Shown here: positions 4,506 through 33,724 of the stretch, one piece after another
Numbering within the stretch: the first letter of the stretch is position 1
Layout: every line of letters starts with the position of its first letter
From: an uncultured Bacilli bacterium
Lineage (GTDB): Bacteria; Bacillota_I; Bacilli_A; RF39; UBA660
Reading direction: 5' to 3'
Assembly: GCA_947630105.1 (NCBI GenBank)
Contig: CANRGD010000007.1
Coordinates: 1-34,341, forward strand
Length of the DNA: 34,341 nt
Program-made: the position numbers and the translations under genes
The notes under the pieces: generated by a model
Databases searched by the model: none
The model's input: the letters and a program-made list of their open reading frames with translations, nothing else
Told to the model about the DNA's origin: nothing

Positions 4506-4745
4506 ATGGAAATCAAAATTATTGGAAAAAATTCTAGTAATAGAATGAAATTATTAAGAAATGTTGAAAAAGCATTAGAAACGAAAGAAAATGTTTGTAA
4601 TCTTCAAATTTTAGAAAATGATAAATATAAACAAATTTATCATGTAGTAAATACTCCTGCTCTTTTAATAGATGGGAAAGTAATTAGTCAAGGTAAAATC
4701 TTAACGGAAAGAGAAATAAAAAGATTTATTCTTGTTAATAACTAG
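4506..4745 (+). CDS. Thioredoxin-fold (MTH895-like small redox protein) lacking the CxxC
   Basis: MEIKIIGKNSSNRMKLLRNVEKALE...VNTPALLIDGKVISQGKILTEREIKRFI; cis-Pro region conserved, active-site Cys positions replaced by Ser and Arg. Confidence 0.7.
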   Translation: MEIKIIGKNSSNRMKLLRNVEKALETKENVCNLQILENDKYKQIYHVVNTPALLIDGKVISQGKILTEREIKRFILVNN

Positions 4746-9264: not shown

Positions 9265-10023
9265 ATGGTGAGTGTTATGCCTAATTTACATAGTAATATT
9301 TCTTTTGGATTAGTAAATATACCTGTTGTTATGAACCCGTTAATAAAAAATAATGATACTTCATTTAATCAACTACACAAAAAGTGTATGCATAGAATAA
9401 AATATATTAAATATTGTGATTATTGTAAAAGTGAAGTATTAGAAAAAGATATTATTAAAGGATTTGAATATGAAAAAAATAATTATTTAACTTTTCCAAA
9501 AGATGAATTAGATAAATTAAAACCAGAAAATGAAAGAGAAATTGAAATAATTTCTTTTGTAGATATTAAAGAGATAGATCCTGCTTATTTTGAAAAAAGT
9601 TATATTTTACAGACAGAAAAAACTTCCAAAGCTTATGATTTATTTTGTGAAGCTTTAAAAAAGGTAAATAAAGTGGCATTAGCTAAAACAGTTTTAGGTA
9701 GTAAATTTTATTATTGTATTTTAAGATTTACAAAATTTGGTATTATTATGACAACTTTATTTTTTAAAGAAGAGGTTATTTTTCCAGATAGTAATAAAGA
9801 ACTGGAAGTAAATAATAAAGAATTAGATTTAGCTATAAAATTAATTGAAGAGAGATCTGGAAAATTTGAACCAGAGAAATATCAAGATGAATATCAAGAA
9901 AATATAAAAGAGGCAATTGAAGCTAAAATTAATGGTAAAACTGTTAAAAAAGTGAAAAAGCATCAAAAAGAGCAAGTTAGTGATTTGTTTGAAGCTTTGG
10001 AAAAGAGTCTTAAAAGAAAATGA
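9265..10023 (+). CDS. ku: Ku protein (bacterial NHEJ)
   Basis: NISFGLVNIPVVMNP, FNQLHKKCMHRIKY and GFEYEKNNYLTFPKDELDKLKPE motifs of bacterial Ku. Confidence 0.93.
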   Translation: MVSVMPNLHSNISFGLVNIPVVMNPLIKNNDTSFNQLHKKCMHRIKYIKYCDYCKSEVLEKDIIKGFEYEKNNYLTFPKDELDKLKPENEREIEIISFVDIKEIDPAYFEKSYILQTEKTSKAYDLFCEALKKVNKVALAKTVLGSKFYYCILRFTKFGIIMTTLFFKEEVIFPDSNKELEVNNKELDLAIKLIEERSGKFEPEKYQDEYQENIKEAIEAKINGKTVKKVKKHQKEQVSDLFEALEKSLKRK

Positions 10024-10910
10024 TAGATTTATGGAAAAATAGAAATTGGGAACCAATGTTATTAAAAGAAGAAGATAAAGTTTTTGATTCAGCAGATTTT
10101 TTGTATGAGTTAAAATTTGATGGACAAAGAGCTATTATTTTTGTTGATCCTAAAAATGTGAAAATAGTTAATAGGCATGCTAAAGATATTTCTTATTTAT
10201 TTCCTGAATTACAAAAATTAAAAACTATGGTAAAAGATAATGTTATTTTTGATGGAGAAATTGTTGCTTTTGAAAATAATATGCCTTCATTTACTAAATT
10301 ACAAGAAAGAACACATTTGAAAGATAAAATGAAAATTAAATATTATAGTGAAAGTAGACCTATTATTTTTGTGTGTTTTGATATTTTATATTGGGAGAAA
10401 AATTTAATTGATTTATCATTATGGGAAAGAAAAAAAATATTGAATAAATTTGCAGATAATGAATATTTTATAAAAAATAAGTTTGTTTTAGAGAAGGGTA
10501 AAGAATTATTTGAAAAAGTAAAAAAACTTAAGTTAGAAGGAATTGTTGCAAAAAATAAAAATAGTTTATATTATACAAATACAAGAACAGATAATTGGAT
10601 AAAAATAAAAAATTTAAAGAGGGAGTCTTTTTTTATAGGAGGATATGTAGATAATAAGAGTAATGTAGGCTCACTTTGTTTAGGAGAGTATCAAAATGGA
10701 GTATTTAATTTTGTAGGAAAGGTAAGTGTAGCAAAGAAATATAAAGGTTGGCAACAAGTGAAGGTAGCAAAAAAATTAATAAAATCACCTTTTAGTAACT
10801 TTGATGAAAAGGTAAATTTTGTGATGCCTAAATATAAATGTATTGTTAAGTATTTAGAAAGAACAAAAAATGGTCATCTTCGACAACCTATTTTTGAAGA
10901 AATGAATTAA
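10020..10910 (+). CDS. ATP-dependent DNA ligase, LigD ligase-domain type (stand-alone)
   Basis: Nucleotidyltransferase motif YELKFDGQRAIIF, FDGEIVAF, EGIVAKNKNSLY; ATGA overlap with ku. Confidence 0.92.
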   Translation: MIDLWKNRNWEPMLLKEEDKVFDSADFLYELKFDGQRAIIFVDPKNVKIVNRHAKDISYLFPELQKLKTMVKDNVIFDGEIVAFENNMPSFTKLQERTHLKDKMKIKYYSESRPIIFVCFDILYWEKNLIDLSLWERKKILNKFADNEYFIKNKFVLEKGKELFEKVKKLKLEGIVAKNKNSLYYTNTRTDNWIKIKNLKRESFFIGGYVDNKSNVGSLCLGEYQNGVFNFVGKVSVAKKYKGWQQVKVAKKLIKSPFSNFDEKVNFVMPKYKCIVKYLERTKNGHLRQPIFEEMN

Positions 10911-15578: not shown

Positions 15579-16326
15579 AAGTAATTATATATATTTATAT
15601 GATGGTAGTTTTATAAATCTTTTAAATCTTATTAAAATTTTGTTAAAGAAAAAAATAATTCCTCAAAATATAAAAGATGATACTTATTTACCTAATTTAT
15701 TAGAGCAAAGTTTTAAATTTAAAATTGAAGATGATGAGAAAGTAATTCAAGAAATTATTAATGGGACTAGTAAAAATATCTTAACAACAATTTATTATTT
15801 ATTTTTATCAAATGAGGAGAATAAAGAGTTGTTGATTTATTATTTTTTAGTTCATAGTTTAAAGTTTAAAAATAAGGTTTATTATATGCGAAATTTAAAG
15901 AGTGTGGATAAAGCTTTAAAAGTAGTTATGTATGTAAGTCATGAAAATCATAAATTTAAAGGTTTTGTTCGTTTTAAAGAGTTAGCTAATAATATTTTGT
16001 ATGCAGAAATATCTCCAGTGAACAATATTTTGCCAATTTTATCAAATTATTTTAAAAAGAGATTAAAAAATGAATTTTTTATTATTAAAGATGTAAAGAG
16101 AAATATTGTTAGTGTATATGATAAGAAAGATTTTTACATACTAGATGGTGAAGAGTTTAAATTAATAGGAAATAAGGAAAGTTCTTCAGAAAAATTAATT
16201 CAAGATATGTGGATAGCATTTTATAAAACAATTGGAATAAAGGAACGAAAAAATGATCGCTGTCGCAGGAATTTTATGCCAAAAAAATATTGGAAAAATA
16301 TTATTGAAATGAGGGATGAATTATGA
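15571..16326 (+). CDS. TIGR03915-like putative DNA repair partner of the radical SAM protein
   Basis: Directly follows and overlaps the radical SAM gene; N-term YLYDGSFINLLN and C-term RRNFMPKKYWKNIIE are typical. ATG at 15571 (TTG at 15568 is an alternative). Confidence 0.8.
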   Translation: MSKSNYIYLYDGSFINLLNLIKILLKKKIIPQNIKDDTYLPNLLEQSFKFKIEDDEKVIQEIINGTSKNILTTIYYLFLSNEENKELLIYYFLVHSLKFKNKVYYMRNLKSVDKALKVVMYVSHENHKFKGFVRFKELANNILYAEISPVNNILPILSNYFKKRLKNEFFIIKDVKRNIVSVYDKKDFYILDGEEFKLIGNKESSSEKLIQDMWIAFYKTIGIKERKNDRCRRNFMPKKYWKNIIEMRDEL

Positions 16327-17873
16327 AAAAAGTAGTTGCGGGAAAAGAGTTAAATGATAAGATGGATCAAGCAATTGAATTACTTTGTAATACGGTAAAA
16401 ACAACTTTAGGGCCTAAGGGAAGTAATATTATAATTGATCATTCAGCATTTAATCCTTTTATAACTAATGATGGTGTAACAATTGCTGAAAATATTGAAA
16501 GTGATGATGCTATTATTAATACAATTTTACAATTAGCAAAAGAAGCATCTATTAATACAAATTCTACGGTTGGGGATGGAACTACTACGACACTTGTGTT
16601 ACTACAAAGTATTTATAATTTAGGTAAAAAAATGATAAATGATGGTATGAATCCAATACTTTTAAAAAAAGAATTAGCTAGGTCTACAAAAGAAATAATT
16701 AAATTAATAACTCAATATAGTCATATTCCATCAGAAGAAGAATTATTAAATATTATAGTAACATCAGCAAATTCAAAAGAAATAGGAAAAGATATATATC
16801 AAGCTTATACTTTAACAACTGATTCAAGAACAATATATTTAAAAGAAAGTAATAATGAGAAAACAGAAATTATATATAAAAAAGGTTATGTTATTGATAC
16901 TTTAATTGCTTCTACATTTTTCTTTAAAGATGAAAAAGAAATTAATATTACTTATCCTTATATACTTATATTAAATAATACAGTGGATAATATGGAAGAT
17001 ATAGCTAGAGTAATTAATGAAGTTATAAGTACAAATAGATCTTTAATAATTATGGCAGAAGATTATAGTGACTTTTTTGTTAAACAAGTAATTAATTTAT
17101 TTCTGGAAAATAATTTATTGATTTATTTATTAAAAGTTCCGGAATATGGAAGTAGAAAATTAGATATATTTAATGATTTAGCACTTATTAGTAATGCAAA
17201 AATTGTAGATGATGTTTTAAATATTAATTTTAATTCTTTAGGACAAGTAGAAAGTGTAAAAATAAATAGTGAGGAAACTACTTTTTCTTTTGTTACTACA
17301 GAAAAAATAAAAAGTAAAATTAAAAGACTTGAAGATTTAATAAATGAAAGTAATGAAGGCGAAAAAGAATTTTTATTAAGACGAATAACAATGTTTAAAA
17401 AAGGAGTAGTGGATATTTGTATAGGAGCGCCTACTAAAACAGAAAGAAGAGAAAGAAAAATGCGTTATGATGATGCCTTGTGTTCATTACGTTCAGCTAG
17501 TAAAGGAGTTTTACCAGGAGGTGGAGTTATTCTTTATAAATTGGGATTTAATATTAAAGAAACTACAAGAGGAGAAAGTATTTTAAAAGAAGCATTAAAA
17601 ACACCTTTAAAACAAATTTTAATTAATTCAGGTTTAGATTATGAAAAAATAATTAATGAGTTAAAAAAAGATGATTTTAATAAAATATTTAATGTTAAAA
17701 CTAATAATTATGAGAGTATGGATAAGAGTGAAATATTAGATTCTACTTCTGTATTATGTAATAGTATTAGTAATGCAGTTTCAATTTCAAGTATGTTGTT
17801 AACGACAACTTCTTTAATTATTAATGAATATATAAATAATACAGAAAAAATTAGTGAATTTGCTGAATTATAA
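16323..17873 (+). CDS. Divergent GroEL/Cpn60 chaperonin paralog
   Basis: TVKTTLGPKGSNIII, TNDGVTIA, NSTVGDGTTTTLVL, RYDDALCSLRSASKGVLPGGGVILY; no C-terminal GGM tail; ATGA overlap with the upstream gene. Confidence 0.9.
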   Translation: MKKVVAGKELNDKMDQAIELLCNTVKTTLGPKGSNIIIDHSAFNPFITNDGVTIAENIESDDAIINTILQLAKEASINTNSTVGDGTTTTLVLLQSIYNLGKKMINDGMNPILLKKELARSTKEIIKLITQYSHIPSEEELLNIIVTSANSKEIGKDIYQAYTLTTDSRTIYLKESNNEKTEIIYKKGYVIDTLIASTFFFKDEKEINITYPYILILNNTVDNMEDIARVINEVISTNRSLIIMAEDYSDFFVKQVINLFLENNLLIYLLKVPEYGSRKLDIFNDLALISNAKIVDDVLNINFNSLGQVESVKINSEETTFSFVTTEKIKSKIKRLEDLINESNEGEKEFLLRRITMFKKGVVDICIGAPTKTERRERKMRYDDALCSLRSASKGVLPGGGVILYKLGFNIKETTRGESILKEALKTPLKQILINSGLDYEKIINELKKDDFNKIFNVKTNNYESMDKSEILDSTSVLCNSISNAVSISSMLLTTTSLIINEYINNTEKISEFAEL

Positions 17874-22034: not shown

Positions 22035-22856
22035 CTATACAGATACAATATTAATATTATTAAAGTATTCTATGACATTGCTAATTACTTTTTCTATTGG
22101 AATGTTTAACCAATTAACTTTTGGATTATTTAGCATTGTTAGATATCTTTTAGAACTTAAAATTTTATTTAGTCTTGAAATAATATCTGAAATATTATTT
22201 TCTTTCATATTAGAATCATTAAATATTAAAATTTTCAAACATATTTCTAATTTTGATTTATCAATTCCAGCAATGTTAATTAAATAGTAAAAATCAAATA
22301 AATCTTTGTATCTTGTAGATCTAAAACCAAGTTTTAATAATGCCTTCAATTTTTCAGTTAAAATTTGTTCTTTAGAATTTATTAATAGGTTAACATTTCG
22401 ATTAAATATATCTAAACTAAAACAATATTCATCTTGTTCAATTTCAAATTGTTTATGAACACCTATATCTAACTTTGTATTTATACTATTACCAAAAGAA
22501 TCTGAAAGTTGTATATTTACTCTTTTTCCATCATAATCTTGATGATGCAATTTCTTTATTGAACCATTAATTTTAATTTCTATATTATCATTAACATTAT
22601 TCAATTTATCAATAAAATTCTTAATTGAATCATCATCTAAAGAATATTTAATAAAGTCTAAATCAAGGTCGCGAGTTGCACGACGAATATCTTTAGATAT
22701 AGAGTGCATAACAACACCACCTTTAATAGTAATATGACTTTTGAAATTACTATTAGATATTTTAAAAAGTATTATATCTTGACATACTTTAGAACTTGCA
22801 TCAGTATATTCATAACCAGTATTTATATATTCTAGAGTTAATTCTTCTAAATTCAT
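22035..22856 (-). CDS. AbiEii-type nucleotidyltransferase toxin
   Basis: KGGVVMHSISKDIRRATRDLDLDFIKY; downstream of an AbiEi-like gene. Confidence 0.85.
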   Translation of the reverse strand: MNLEELTLEYINTGYEYTDASSKVCQDIILFKISNSNFKSHITIKGGVVMHSISKDIRRATRDLDLDFIKYSLDDDSIKNFIDKLNNVNDNIEIKINGSIKKLHHQDYDGKRVNIQLSDSFGNSINTKLDIGVHKQFEIEQDEYCFSLDIFNRNVNLLINSKEQILTEKLKALLKLGFRSTRYKDLFDFYYLINIAGIDKSKLEICLKILIFNDSNMKENNISDIISRLNKILSSKRYLTMLNNPKVNWLNIPIEKVISNVIEYFNNINIVSV

Positions 22857-28411: not shown

Positions 28412-28435
28412 AAGAATAAAGTTTAAGACTTTATC
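28412..28435. repeat. Left arm of 24-bp perfect inverted repeat (IRL)
   Basis: AAGAATAAAGTTTAAGACTTTATC; exact reverse complement at 29748-29771. Contains dyad ATAAAGT-TTAAG-ACTTTAT. Confidence 0.97.
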
Positions 28436-28453
28436 TTAATTTATAAAAATAAC

Positions 28454-28481
28454 AAAAAAAGCCAAAAACTTTATTTTTGAC
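28454..28481 (-). terminator. Terminator of the recombinase gene
   Basis: On - strand GTCAAAAA-taaag-TTTTTGGC followed by T7, immediately after the stop codon. Confidence 0.75.
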
Positions 28482-28484
28482 TTT

Positions 28485-29588
28485 TTAATAAGACTGCGAT
28501 AAATTTAGAAATGTTAATTTATTAATTTGGAATAATTTTTCACTATCAGTTACATGAACATATAAATCAAGGGTAGTTTTTACACTTGAATGTCCTAATA
28601 TTTCACTTAATGATTTAATATCTACACCACATAATAAAGATCTAGTAGCAAAAGTATGACGTAAAATATGGAATTTATATTTTCTAATTGATAAAGATTT
28701 AAGAAAATCAAGATAAAATAGGTAATATTTTTTAGTTGTTATAAAAGTATTTTTACCAGTTAAAAAATAACAATTTTCATTTTTTTGAAATTTTTTTAAA
28801 TATGGTAATATTGCATTATTTATTGGAATATTTCTAATAGAATTTTGTGTTTTTGGAGAATCTATTATTATTTTTGTTTTATTTTTATTAGTAGTGTCTT
28901 TATTTTTAACCCTGATTAAAGTTTTATTAATATGAATTATTTTATTTTTAATATCAATATCTTTCCACTGTAAAGCACATAATTCTCCAATTCTAAGCCC
29001 AGAAAATAAAACAAATAAAATAGCAAAAACTTTAATATCATTACTATTTTTAGCTGCTTTTTCAATAGTTTTTATTTCATAATCATTTAAAGTAATAATT
29101 TTCTTGGGTATAAATTTCGGCATTTCTATTTTTATATTAATATTTTTATAGTTTAAGAATTGTTTTAATACTAATAATATATCTTTAATTCTCTTATTAC
29201 CTAAGTTTTCTTCTTTTAAGTAATTAGTAAATTCAATAACATTTTTTTCAGTTAAGTTTTTAATTTTTATATTTTTAAAATAAGGGATAATTTTGGAATT
29301 TACTATAGAATAATAGTTAGTATAACTAGAATCCTTAAGTAAAACTTTACTATTAAGCTAGCAATTAATTGAATCAGAAAAACTATCTTTTTCAGATATT
29401 GATTTTTTTAAATTTTCTTGGGTAAAAGTTTTTAATTTTTCTTCTCTTTTTTGTTTTACTTCAAGATAACTTCTTGCATAAACAAAACCATATTTTTTTA
29501 TTCTTCCAAATTCATCTCTTTCTTTTACATATCTTGCTTCATATCTGCCATCTTTTCTTTTAGTTATATTTTCTCCTTTTTTTGGCAT
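28485..29588 (-). pseudogene. Tyrosine recombinase/integrase interrupted by one in-frame TAG (29358-29360)
   Basis: ORFs 29358..29588 (N-terminal arm domain, MPKKGENITKRKDGRYEARYVKERDEFGRIKKYG) and 28485..29123 (catalytic: GLRIGELCALQW, HILRHTFATR, LGHSSVKTTLDLYVH) share a reading frame; the 78 codons between are open and encode a SAM-like core-binding domain (LNSKVLLKDSSYTNYYSIVNSKIIPYFKNIKIKNLTEKNVIEFTNYLKEENLGNKRIKDILLVLKQFLNYKNINIKIE). Confidence 0.9.
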
Positions 29589-29710
29589 ATTACTCCTCCT
29601 TTTTTTTATTTTAAGACTTGATTTTTGACTGCTATTAAAATTTTTTTGAAGTATAAGTTTTACAATATTTTATTATTTTAAGAAAAATAGTGTAAAAATT
29701 TGTCAGATTA

Positions 29711-29719
29711 TGTTATAAT
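29711..29719 (+). promoter_or_regulatory. Outward-facing extended -10 promoter inside the invertible segment
   Basis: TGTTATAAT between the recombinase start and IRR, reading toward the SipW-type gene at 29789. Confidence 0.6.
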
Positions 29720-29747
29720 TCTAATTGATAATAGCAAAAGGTTTTAG

Positions 29748-29771
29748 GATAAAGTCTTAAACTTTATTCTT
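29748..29771. repeat. Right arm of 24-bp perfect inverted repeat (IRR)
   Basis: GATAAAGTCTTAAACTTTATTCTT, exact reverse complement of 28412-28435. Confidence 0.97.
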
Positions 29772-29788: not shown

Positions 29789-30433
29789 ATGGACACTATT
29801 AAACAAGATAAAAAGGGAATTGTTGGTAAAATATTTAAAACTATCTTTTTTTTGATAGCTTTTATTATTTTAGTAATAGCTGGAATTATTATGTTTAAAG
29901 CAAATACTGATCCAGATAAAGTGCCAGATGTATTTGGATATAAACCTATGATAGTATTATCAGGATCTATGGAAACTTCAATTCATACAGGGGATTTAGT
30001 GTTTGTAAAAATGGTAGATACAACTATTTTGAAAAAAGGTGATGTAATTGCTTTTAGAAATGAAGAAGATACTGTTACTACACATAGAATTGTAGAAATT
30101 GTTTTTGAAGATGGAAAACAATATTTTAAAACTAAAGGAGACGCTAATAATGCTGAAGATACTAACTTGGTAGCTATGGAAGATGTTGAAGGATTATATG
30201 TCGGAAGAATAGCTAAAGCGGGTAATTTCTTAATGTTTATGCAAAAACCTATGGGGTTGTTTATAGTTTTATTAGTAATTTTAGTAGTTGGGTTATTATG
30301 GCTATATATTATTAGTAAAAGAGATGATAAGAAATATAGTAAAGAAGAAGAAAAAGATAGATTAGAGTTTGAAGAATTTAAAAGAAAAAGAGAATTAGAA
30401 CGTCAAAATAATGAAAAAAAAGAAGATAAATAA
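29789..30433 (+). CDS. SipW-type signal peptidase I (ER-type Ser/His)
   Basis: MIVLSGSMETSIHTGDLVFVK, GDVIAF, TVTTHRIVEI, YFKTKGDANNAEDTNLV; TM at both ends. Confidence 0.9.
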   Translation: MDTIKQDKKGIVGKIFKTIFFLIAFIILVIAGIIMFKANTDPDKVPDVFGYKPMIVLSGSMETSIHTGDLVFVKMVDTTILKKGDVIAFRNEEDTVTTHRIVEIVFEDGKQYFKTKGDANNAEDTNLVAMEDVEGLYVGRIAKAGNFLMFMQKPMGLFIVLLVILVVGLLWLYIISKRDDKKYSKEEEKDRLEFEEFKRKRELERQNNEKKEDK

Positions 30434-30491: not shown

Positions 30492-30520
30492 CTCAAAATT
30501 GTTGTAAGGAGGTGAAAAAA

Positions 30521-31198
30521 TTGAAAAAGAAAACTGTATATTCAGCAATGGTAGTAGTTATGTTGCTAGCAATTTCTTTATACTTTATAGGTGGAACATA
30601 CGCTAGATATGTTAGTGAATTTGATGGTAGCGGAAATGTTGATATAGCAAAATGGGCAGTTGCTTTGAAAAGTGGTGAACAACCATTAAATAAAAATTTT
30701 GAATTGACATTAAAACCTGTTGCTAATGAGCATGTTGTTACTGGTAAAATTGCTCCATCAGTTACAGCTACTGGAGAAATAGATGTTGAATTAAATGGTA
30801 CAGAAGTATCTGTTGATGTTATTTCTACTATTTCAGAAGACGCAGTTAAAAATGCTTTAACTACACTTGGTGCAGCTGATGTAGATGATAGTGGTATAGA
30901 TGTAAAAGTTACTGTTACTAAAGATGAAGGTGCTGAAAATATAAAGGACATAAGTGGTAGTGGTACTTCAGATTCACCTTATCTAGTTGCATTAAATAGT
31001 ACTGAAAGTGGATTTGGGGAAACTGATAAAATAAAAGTTACTGTGAAAGTTACTTGGACAAATGATGATGCCAAGAGTACAGCTCATACAAAGATTGGTG
31101 AAGCTGCAGCAACAGCTTCCGCAGCAACTTTAAAAGTTCCTTTTAAATTACAAATTGTTCAACATATTCAAGATCAAAAATATACACCAGGAACTTAA
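30521..31198 (+). CDS. TasA/camelysin-like SipW-dependent secreted protein
   Basis: N-term TM ending GGTYARYVSEFDGSGNVDIAKWAVAL; TTG at 30521 with RBS aaggagg (GTG at 30512 overlaps the RBS). Confidence 0.7.
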   Translation: MKKKTVYSAMVVVMLLAISLYFIGGTYARYVSEFDGSGNVDIAKWAVALKSGEQPLNKNFELTLKPVANEHVVTGKIAPSVTATGEIDVELNGTEVSVDVISTISEDAVKNALTTLGAADVDDSGIDVKVTVTKDEGAENIKDISGSGTSDSPYLVALNSTESGFGETDKIKVTVKVTWTNDDAKSTAHTKIGEAAATASAATLKVPFKLQIVQHIQDQKYTPGT

Positions 31199-31201
31199 TA
31201 G

Positions 31202-31251
31202 ATTGGAAGTTAAAACTTCCAATAAGGGCTATAAGTTTTATAACCCTTATT
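31202..31251 (+). other. Two tandem RNA hairpins after the first substrate gene
   Basis: ATTGGAAGTT-aa-AACTTCCAAT, then AATAAGGGcTATAA-gtt-TTATAaCCCTTATT; no T run. Confidence 0.65.
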
Positions 31252-31290
31252 GAAGGCTTTAAGGACATAGAAAAGTGGTGATAAATATAG

Positions 31291-32073
31291 ATGAGTACAC
31301 AAAAGAAAAAAGAGAAAACTAATGAAAAAAACTTTGTGGTAATGATACTTATTCTAATTGCTTTAATTATAATTATCTTTTTACTTGTTGGAAATCTAGG
31401 ATTTATTGACCATAGACCTCGAATCCCAACGGGAAACGTAGATATTTTTGATATAATTTTTCAAAAAAATTGTGATACTACCTGCACTTGCAACTGTATT
31501 TGCAATAATGGTAATTGTAATAATTGTAATAATACTACGGGTGGTAATGCAAATACTAACAATAATACTGGAAGTAATACGGAAAATACTGGTGAATCAA
31601 GTGGTAGTGTTAAGCCAAATATTCCAACTTCACCAGAAGATAAAGATGGTATAGAAGTTTTTGATGAGGAAACAGAATATTTTCAAAATACACAACTTCA
31701 TATATTTACTAATACAGCTTATTATGTTGTTGATGATAAAATTGCTCCTACAAGTGAAAATACATACCAATTTGTAATAAGAAATAATAATGAATTTAAT
31801 ATAAAATATGATTTAGATTTATTTGAAGATAATAAATTTAATATTAATATGAAATATCGTTTAAAATTAAATAATGTATATGTTGCAGGAAATGATGATG
31901 AATGGTTGACTTATAAAGAATTACAACAAAAAGATATTGAACTTGCAGCCAATACTTATGATGTGTATACATTAGACTGGAAGTGGTTTGAATCAAGTAA
32001 TGATACAGAAGTAGGTACAAAAATAAATTCTAATTATAAATTGGAATTAAAAATTACAGCTTCTGGGTATTAA
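31291..32073 (+). CDS. Membrane-anchored surface protein with Cys-rich and Asn-rich juxtamembrane segment
   Basis: Single TM, then CDTTCTCNCICNNGNCNNCNNTTGGNANTNNNTGSN, then TasA-like beta domain. Confidence 0.65.
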   Translation: MSTQKKKEKTNEKNFVVMILILIALIIIIFLLVGNLGFIDHRPRIPTGNVDIFDIIFQKNCDTTCTCNCICNNGNCNNCNNTTGGNANTNNNTGSNTENTGESSGSVKPNIPTSPEDKDGIEVFDEETEYFQNTQLHIFTNTAYYVVDDKIAPTSENTYQFVIRNNNEFNIKYDLDLFEDNKFNINMKYRLKLNNVYVAGNDDEWLTYKELQQKDIELAANTYDVYTLDWKWFESSNDTEVGTKINSNYKLELKITASGY

Positions 32074-32092
32074 AAAGAAAGAAGGTGTAACG

Positions 32093-32674
32093 ATGTCTAC
32101 AAGAAAAAAATATAAATTAAAAAGAATAAAAAATTTCTTAATATTTTATATGTTTGTGTGTATTTTATTTGTAGCTAGTTACACTTTATCTAGATATGTA
32201 GAAACAACAGAAGGTACAAGTGGATTAGGAATAGCTAAATTTAGTGTTACTGTAAATGGTATAAAAGTTACTGAGGGGAATCCTTTTATATTAAATTATA
32301 AAGATATTACAAATACTTCAGAAAAAATAGCTCCTAATACAAGAGGATATTTTGAATTTGAAATAAATCCAAAGGGAACAGAGGTAAGTTTAGAATATGA
32401 ATTTAATTTTGATTTAAAAGAAATACCTGAAGAGTTTAAATTAGCATATTTTACTATAAATGATGGGGAAGAACAGTATGATATTACTGATACTAATATT
32501 ATAAAAAATGAGTTACTTCTTTCTAATAAAGAAGAGGGATTTACGGAAGATGAGAAAATAAATATAAAAGTTTATTGGACTTGGGATGTTGCTGAAGAAA
32601 TTACTAATCCAGATGTTAGTACTATAGATAATAAAAATATTAGTATTATAGCTGTAATAAGACAAAAGCTATAA
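32093..32674 (+). CDS. TasA/camelysin-like secreted protein
   Basis: N-term TM ending SYTLSRYVETTEGTSGLGIAKFSVTVNG. Confidence 0.7.
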   Translation: MSTRKKYKLKRIKNFLIFYMFVCILFVASYTLSRYVETTEGTSGLGIAKFSVTVNGIKVTEGNPFILNYKDITNTSEKIAPNTRGYFEFEINPKGTEVSLEYEFNFDLKEIPEEFKLAYFTINDGEEQYDITDTNIIKNELLLSNKEEGFTEDEKINIKVYWTWDVAEEITNPDVSTIDNKNISIIAVIRQKL

Positions 32675-32691
32675 TAAGACAGGAGGTAGCA

Positions 32692-33210
32692 ATGGAAAGG
32701 TATGGACTAAAAAAAGAATTAGTTATTACACTTACTTTTTTTGTATGTGTTTTATTTGTCTTTACTTTTAATGCTACATCTAGTAGATATAGGGGAGAAA
32801 TTCAAGGTCGAGCAAATGATGTTTTAGCTGTTCCAGTTATTGGATTAGAAAATCCTACTTTTACATATACAGCACAAAATGTATTACCAGGATTTACTGA
32901 TGAAGCTGATTTTTATGTTACTAATTATGATAATACAAAAAATAATGAAATTTTAATGAAGTATTATTTAAAAATTCAGTTAAATACTATTATACCAATA
33001 AAAGTTACTTTAACAGATGCTAATGAGTTAGAGTTGCCATTATTAGAAGATGGAAAAACTGAAGAGTTTATTTTACCTTATGATAAAACGATGAGAACAA
33101 AATTTCATCTAAAAATAGAATGGGATAAAAAAGATAACAGTTATGAATATGCTGGTAAAGATATAAGTTTAAAAATAGATTTAATAGCGACACAAGTAGT
33201 TGAGGGATAA
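32692..33210 (+). CDS. TasA/camelysin-like secreted protein
   Basis: N-term TM ending NATSSRYRGEIQGRANDVLAVPVIGL; beta-rich body. Confidence 0.6.
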   Translation: MERYGLKKELVITLTFFVCVLFVFTFNATSSRYRGEIQGRANDVLAVPVIGLENPTFTYTAQNVLPGFTDEADFYVTNYDNTKNNEILMKYYLKIQLNTIIPIKVTLTDANELELPLLEDGKTEEFILPYDKTMRTKFHLKIEWDKKDNSYEYAGKDISLKIDLIATQVVEG

Positions 33211-33211
33211 A

Positions 33212-33724
33212 ATGGAAATAGTAAAAAAAATAGGAAAAATATTATTTTATATAGTTTTAGTAATTATGGCTTTATATAGTACATTTATAATTATGCAAAA
33301 AATAATTTGGAGAGATAAGACTCCTGAGTTTATGGGATATAAAAATTTTATTATTTTAACAGGAAGTATGAAGCCAACGCTTAACAGCGGAGATATTGTT
33401 GTGGTAAAAGAAAGTAAGGATATTAAAGAAAATGATATAATTTCTTTTAAAGTAGATAATTCTGTAATTACGCATAGAGTATATGATATTTATAAAGAAA
33501 ATGGAAAAATATATTATATTACTAAAGGAGATGCCAATACTGGAACAGATACCGAGTTAATAAGCATAGAAGATATAGAAGGTAAATATTGTTTTAGAAT
33601 TCCTTTTTTAGGTAATGTCATTTTATTTTTACAAAAACCTAGTGGAATTGTTCTTTTATTTGGAATATTAGGAATTTATTTATTAGTTAGTTTTTTAAAA
33701 TCAACTAAAAGTCAAGAAAAATAA
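33212..33724 (+). CDS. Second SipW-type signal peptidase I
   Basis: FIILTGSMKPTLNSGDIVVVKE, SVITHRVYDIY, YYITKGDANTGTDTELI. ATG 33212 preferred over ORF-track start 33200. Confidence 0.88.
   Translation: MEIVKKIGKILFYIVLVIMALYSTFIIMQKIIWRDKTPEFMGYKNFIILTGSMKPTLNSGDIVVVKESKDIKENDIISFKVDNSVITHRVYDIYKENGKIYYITKGDANTGTDTELISIEDIEGKYCFRIPFLGNVILFLQKPSGIVLLFGILGIYLLVSFLKSTKSQEK

Follow-up and report, generated by a model that had tools for sequence, protein, structure and literature searches.

The locus described here raises the question of what becomes of a phase switch when the gene for its own recombinase carries an early stop codon. In the window (the whole stretch of DNA analysed, 34,341 nucleotides), the recombinase gene is enclosed by an inverted pair of repeats, i.e. 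it lies inside the segment that its product should invert. An earlier note, made from the sequence alone, had proposed that a single TAG splits this gene into two open reading frames and that the switch is possibly locked in the ON state. The reading that we consider likely is that of a promoter inversion switch whose own recombinase carries a nonsense mutation (Trp77 to amber) that is recent and private to this copy, with flipping now achievable only via an intact paralogue on another contig of the genome (C36) or via trace readthrough. The features of the locus are collected in Table 1.

Table 1. Features of the recombinase cassette and the adjoining operon, in window coordinates
Feature	Position	Strand	Basis or detail
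Left inverted repeat	28412..28439	+	core TAAAGT-TTAAG-ACTTTA at 28417-28433, exact
Direct repeats (GTC...GTC) on both sides of the recombinase stop codon, putatively arm-type	28472..28499	-	
Tyrosine recombinase frame, 367 codons, broken at codon 77	28485..29588	-	translation, homology; Pfam PF00589 and PF14659
212-aa ORF after the TAG, beginning with the first ATG at codon 156; has the catalytic but not the core-binding domain, and no Shine-Dalgarno	28485..29123	-	
76-aa product upstream of the TAG, arm-binding domain only (predicted three strands plus helix)	29358..29588	-	secondary structure of the model
In-frame TAG (CTA on the + strand), codon 77, replacing an invariant Trp codon	29358..29360	-	homologue alignments
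Putative regulatory motif or set of arm-type repeats, upstream of the recombinase start	29610..29636	.	TTTTAAGACTT...TTTTTGACTGCTAT
Putative extended -10 promoter element TGTTATAAT, directed outward to the sipW operon	29711..29719	+	sequence conservation
Right inverted repeat	29744..29771	+	crossover core at 29750-29766
SipW-like signal peptidase, first gene under the switch	29789..30433	+	PF10502
TasA-like surface protein genes (30512, 31291, 32093, 32692)	within 30512..33724	+	mutual similarity of some, conserved gene order
Second signal peptidase	33200-33724	+	

Translation of the minus strand across the recombinase frame gave 76 amino acids, the TAG, 290 amino acids and a terminal TAA, with neither a frameshift nor a second stop besides the TAG; this agrees with the earlier note on the coordinates of both ORFs, on their common frame and on there being a single TAG. 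On the read-through frame, the Pfam search returned PF00589 with an E value of 1.2e-23, and the catalytic residues that mark a tyrosine recombinase (R199, H307-x-x-R310, H333 and Y343) were all kept, as had been claimed for the restored 367-aa protein. What this member of the family lacks is a complete coding frame, with the TAG at codon 77 and no restart that retains the core-binding domain. When the TAG was read as Trp, AlphaFold2 modelled the frame with a mean pLDDT of 84, with three strands and a helix in residues 8-66, after which residues 70-84 form the first helix of the core-binding domain. In this model, the TAG (residue 77) cuts within that helix, the first after the arm domain, in agreement with the earlier placement of the stop at the start of the core-binding domain.

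The closest solved structure, both by sequence (E 1.1e-21) and by fold (E 5.3e-12), was the Tn1549 integrase Int (6emy), although the structural match has an identity of 21%. The model shares with the Tn916/Tn1549 group the predicted succession of an arm-binding N-terminal domain, a core-binding domain and a catalytic domain; Pfam gave no hit for the arm-binding domain itself. Unlike the sites of that group, those in the window form an inverted pair around the gene, which would invert the DNA between them and not excise it, and no transposon genes were found around the recombinase in the window.

Alignments to intact homologues from protein searches spanned all 367 codons and ran uninterrupted across the TAG. 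The best identity to the frame was 78% (G093), followed by 76% (L091 and L090), 69% (G029 and the same-genome paralogue) and 63% (G094); further named metagenome-assembled genomes, with few exceptions recorded as uncultured Bacilli, ranged from 76 to 67%, and viral contigs held only distant relatives at 36% identity or less. In two overlapping sets of 12 and 22 aligned homologues (about 30 distinct), every sequence that covers the TAG column has Trp there, followed by Leu, Phe or Met, and no close homologue has an early stop. W77 was likewise invariant in a 19-row recombinase alignment. Stop codons seen in the top homologues were considered as a shared in-frame stop and rejected, being natural C-terminal stops overrun by the alignment. 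The stop is therefore shared by no relative, and the residue proposed as lost, Trp, is the one that the alignments identify; a single base change (TGG to TAG) accounts for it.

The window copy departs at three columns, the TAG included, that are invariant among 13 other close homologues, whereas the intact copies show 0 to 8 such departures. Since there are only three private changes, of which one is the TAG, and no other decay in the frame, the lesion appears to be recent or tolerated, or else not real, i.e. an assembly or strain-mixture error. We regard it as unlikely that the TAG is an artefact of assembly, sequencing or strain mixture and that the living population carries TGG with an ordinary working switch. 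Such an error would suit a lone substitution in an otherwise undecayed frame with all close homologues intact, and the assembly consists of 60 contigs with an estimated contamination of 4.3%; the close named relatives are metagenome-assembled genomes. However, a single substitution away from a homopolymer would be an unusual consensus error, and the TAG is some 5 kb away from the end of its 34-kb contig.

The possibility that the organism reads TAG as an amino acid was assessed from stop codon usage and the genes of termination. Among the 36 open reading frames in the window, 29 end in TAA, four in TAG (one of them at the recombinase TAG) and three in TGA. The TAG terminators at 4745 and 19363, on which the earlier note had based its view that recoding is unlikely, were confirmed, and a third was found at 22035 (minus strand). 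The genome carries a canonical release factor 1 (RF1) gene (502.9 bits against a cut-off of 423.25), and the C36 paralogue ends in a tandem TAG TAG. A suppressor tRNA, which might permit readthrough, was sought as well: a CUA tRNA was absent among the tRNA genes detected, which carries little weight because only nine were detected in an assembly estimated to be 87% complete. Reassignment has nothing in its favour beyond the in-frame TAG, and recoding was rejected on the grounds of Trp in the homologues, the RF1 gene and the TAG terminators elsewhere in the window; we give it hardly any credence. Given the same three lines of evidence, a Trp-to-amber change private to the window copy is the simplest reading of the TAG.

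A shortened but working product was also considered. Between the TAG and codon 156 there is no ATG, GTG or TTG, the first start-type codon being codon 156 itself, past the core-binding domain, and no Shine-Dalgarno sequence was found at codon 156 or at any near-cognate codon before it. A downstream restart yielding a minimal recombinase was rejected for want of both signals. Under readthrough, whether programmed or tolerated, or with a split enzyme, the arm domain and the rest would be made separately, or weak suppression would yield little enzyme and slow switching. As this would predict, the frame shows no decay before or after the TAG and is open downstream to its natural end; but the stop is not conserved among the homologues, TAG serves as a terminator, the RF1 gene is present, and a downstream product with a core-binding domain would have neither start codon nor Shine-Dalgarno sequence. 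We consider this explanation quite improbable. We infer instead that the activity of the resident enzyme is lost, and this loss is probable because the TAG sits where every sampled relative has Trp.

The crossover sites themselves are intact, as the earlier note had held: the left and right inverted repeats are complementary at 27 of 28 positions, and the core is exact. In the whole assembly, TAAAGT-N5-ACTTTA has four exact matches, namely the two window sites and the two sites of the C36 cassette; the 27 places with at most one mismatch do not exceed the 30 found for a control pattern. GTC repeats similar to those near the recombinase end occur in most of the 16 cassette loci inspected (the window, L035 on C36, L036, L090-L101 and L104), and the TTTTAAGACTT...TTTTTGACTGCTAT motif upstream of the gene is conserved in most of them, its TGAC core in nearly all. 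The N-terminal domain may bind the repeats near both gene ends as arm-type sites.

An element of the TGTTATAAT type lies just inside the nearer site, in the interval that separates it from the recombinase start; it is conserved across most loci and may act as a promoter. A generic promoter scan did not list it; that scan gave fewer matches than in shuffled sequences and was uninformative. By sequence, the layout is that of a promoter inversion switch, with inverted crossover sites flanking a putative promoter that faces a target gene. SipW orthologues that are 78-86% identical adjoin the cassette in seven related loci. No Pfam match was obtained for the four TasA-like proteins, and the label is therefore based on the neighbouring SipW gene and on what their N-termini look like. 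Elsewhere in the window, adjacent Ku-like and ATP-dependent DNA ligase-like genes (9265-10910), a putative non-homologous end joining pair, and a GroEL-like chaperonin of 516 aa directly after an uncharacterised gene (16323-17873) were recognised by eye.

In the assembled window, the putative promoter points toward the SipW/TasA-like operon beside the recombinase 5' end, i.e. the cassette is in the ON orientation, as the earlier note had read it. Among the eight loci with this sipW-led operon, the window included, four are ON, with the operon at the recombinase 5' end (the window, G093, L091 and L093), and four are OFF, with the operon at the 3' end (L090, G029/L096, L099 and L101). At least two changes of state are needed on the recombinase tree. 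From the presence of both orientations at the same operon among different species, we infer inversion. The switch in the window is in the ON orientation and probably no longer has an enzyme of its own.

The proposed mechanism is as follows. The cassette would consist of two inverted TAAAGT-N5-ACTTTA crossover sites with the recombinase gene and the outward promoter between them. Recombination from site to site would flip the segment, joining the promoter to the SipW/TasA-like operon or cutting it off. With the TAG, a 76-aa arm-binding fragment and no complete enzyme would be made, and inversion by the resident enzyme would cease. Any continued inversion would have to come from the C36 paralogue, which has the same half-sites, or from trace readthrough.

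A search of the genome for related recombinases, as the earlier note had advised, found four PF00589 genes by profile. One of them is the intact 69% identical paralogue (G000:C36:9953-11044), which lies inside a cassette of its own. Its sites share the half-sites TAAAGT...ACTTTA with the window, while the spacers (TTAAG in the window, TTTTT on C36) and the outer flanks differ; its cassette shows GTC motifs similar to those of the window. The C36 enzyme clusters with the recombinases of L099 and L101 (support 100/99), which are the residents of the sipW switch in their own genomes, of other species. Rescue in trans by the C36 enzyme is plausible, because its close kin run the sipW switch elsewhere and because switches with similar half-sites share recombinases in uropathogenic E. 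coli, where the distant recombinases FimX and IpuA flip fimS and ipuS is flipped by four of five recombinases (PMC6083910). We place such rescue slightly ahead of a complete freeze.

The earlier expectation that the switch is frozen unless a trans-acting recombinase works on it therefore stands as far as the broken gene is concerned; the frozen state was not established, since a paralogue with the same half-sites exists, and 'locked ON' is not to be given as a result. A full lock, in which the resident enzyme is dead, no other acts and the operon is constitutive, perhaps selected for constant surface display, is a serious contender that we nevertheless rate well below an even chance. The stop precedes the catalytic domain without a usable restart, the promoter-like element faces the operon, and loss of RecV makes C. 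difficile strains phase-locked (PMC7446863). Against a lock speak the intact paralogue with its half-sites and similar GTC motifs, and the exact match between the two core sites of the window; a disused switch could dispense with this match, but after a recent loss of the enzyme no such drift would have appeared so far.

Several further observations concern the C36 cassette. The presence of C36-clade recombinases at the sipW switch of L099 and L101 means that a given recombinase type is not tied to a given target operon. The C36 cassette adjoins the gene for a 611-aa TasA-like protein (L035:7975-9810), from which its promoter apparently points away (OFF), toward a GC-rich hairpin at the contig end. 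The contig break was considered as a sign of mixed orientations and set aside, because a stretch of 32-36 nt at the right end of C36 also occurs in C35 and C48, and a repeat may explain it.

The architecture is the same in the 16 loci, with a near-constant half-site TAAAGT...ACTTTA. The two spacers of a pair are identical within each locus (16 of 16), ten different spacers occur across loci, and the bases outside the core vary even within a site pair. Matched spacers with variable outer bases are the pattern expected for live crossover sites. Spacers that match within cassettes and often differ between them may serve as an address code preventing recombination between cassettes. More distant recombinases, 42-46% identical, are enclosed by TAAAG...CTTTA inverted repeats at L045:4813-6205 and L039:8864-10259, and the cassette plan is therefore wider than the close family. 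Perfect inverted site pairs about 290 bp apart, too short for a recombinase gene, were seen at G076:C71:8542-8843 and G057:C47:10775-11065 and are candidate promoter-only switches served in trans.

We tentatively propose, at somewhat less than even confidence, a family of self-contained tyrosine-recombinase flip cassettes of uncultured gut Bacilli with one half-site and locus-specific spacers, in which enzymes would act across cassettes, spacer mismatch would bar recombination between loci, and the window's own enzyme would be dispensable, its switch now run by the distant paralogue. In the literature covered, which excludes most subscription journals, we found no description of such a one-half-site family and nothing relevant joining TasA, SipW and phase variation. 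The surrounding family is the more interesting part of this case; it forms a tidy comparative set of one half-site with many spacers, always matched within a pair. The analysis also suggests that these gut bacteria express an operon for SipW/TasA-like surface proteins in a phase-variable manner. The window itself offers a natural case of a phase switch minus its own enzyme, with sites intact and a related enzyme with compatible sites still in the genome, and it is therefore testable whether loss of a local recombinase freezes a switch or hands it to a shared enzyme.

The operon resembles the SipW/TasA secretion operons of Bacilli in having a SipW-type signal peptidase gene ahead of genes for small proteins that carry a hydrophobic segment at the N-terminus, and differs from them in standing under an inversion cassette. 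With fimS (FimB/FimE/FimX/IpuA) and the C. difficile RecV switches, the cassette has in common an invertible segment between short inverted repeats, a tyrosine recombinase, a surface-structure target and possible enzyme sharing between switches; unlike in those systems, the segment that inverts contains the recombinase gene itself, whose product is predicted to have an arm-binding domain at its N-terminus. Invertible regions that contain the gene of their own recombinase are already known, namely the Hin-type cassettes of Salmonella (PMC5903667), although Hin is a serine recombinase, and the pneumococcal hsdS inverton with psrA (PMC12324116), which shuffles coding sequence whereas the window cassette would flip a promoter. 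Loss of a local switch recombinase is likewise an ordinary kind of event, and the system in the window, well formed as it is, belongs to a known kind: in E. coli ST131 clade C, the switch recombinase gene fimB is naturally broken by ISEc55 (PMC7671891) while the strain's other recombinases remain (PMC7671891, PMC6083910), with the differences that an insertion sequence takes the place of a point nonsense mutation and that the fim recombinase genes lie outside their switch.
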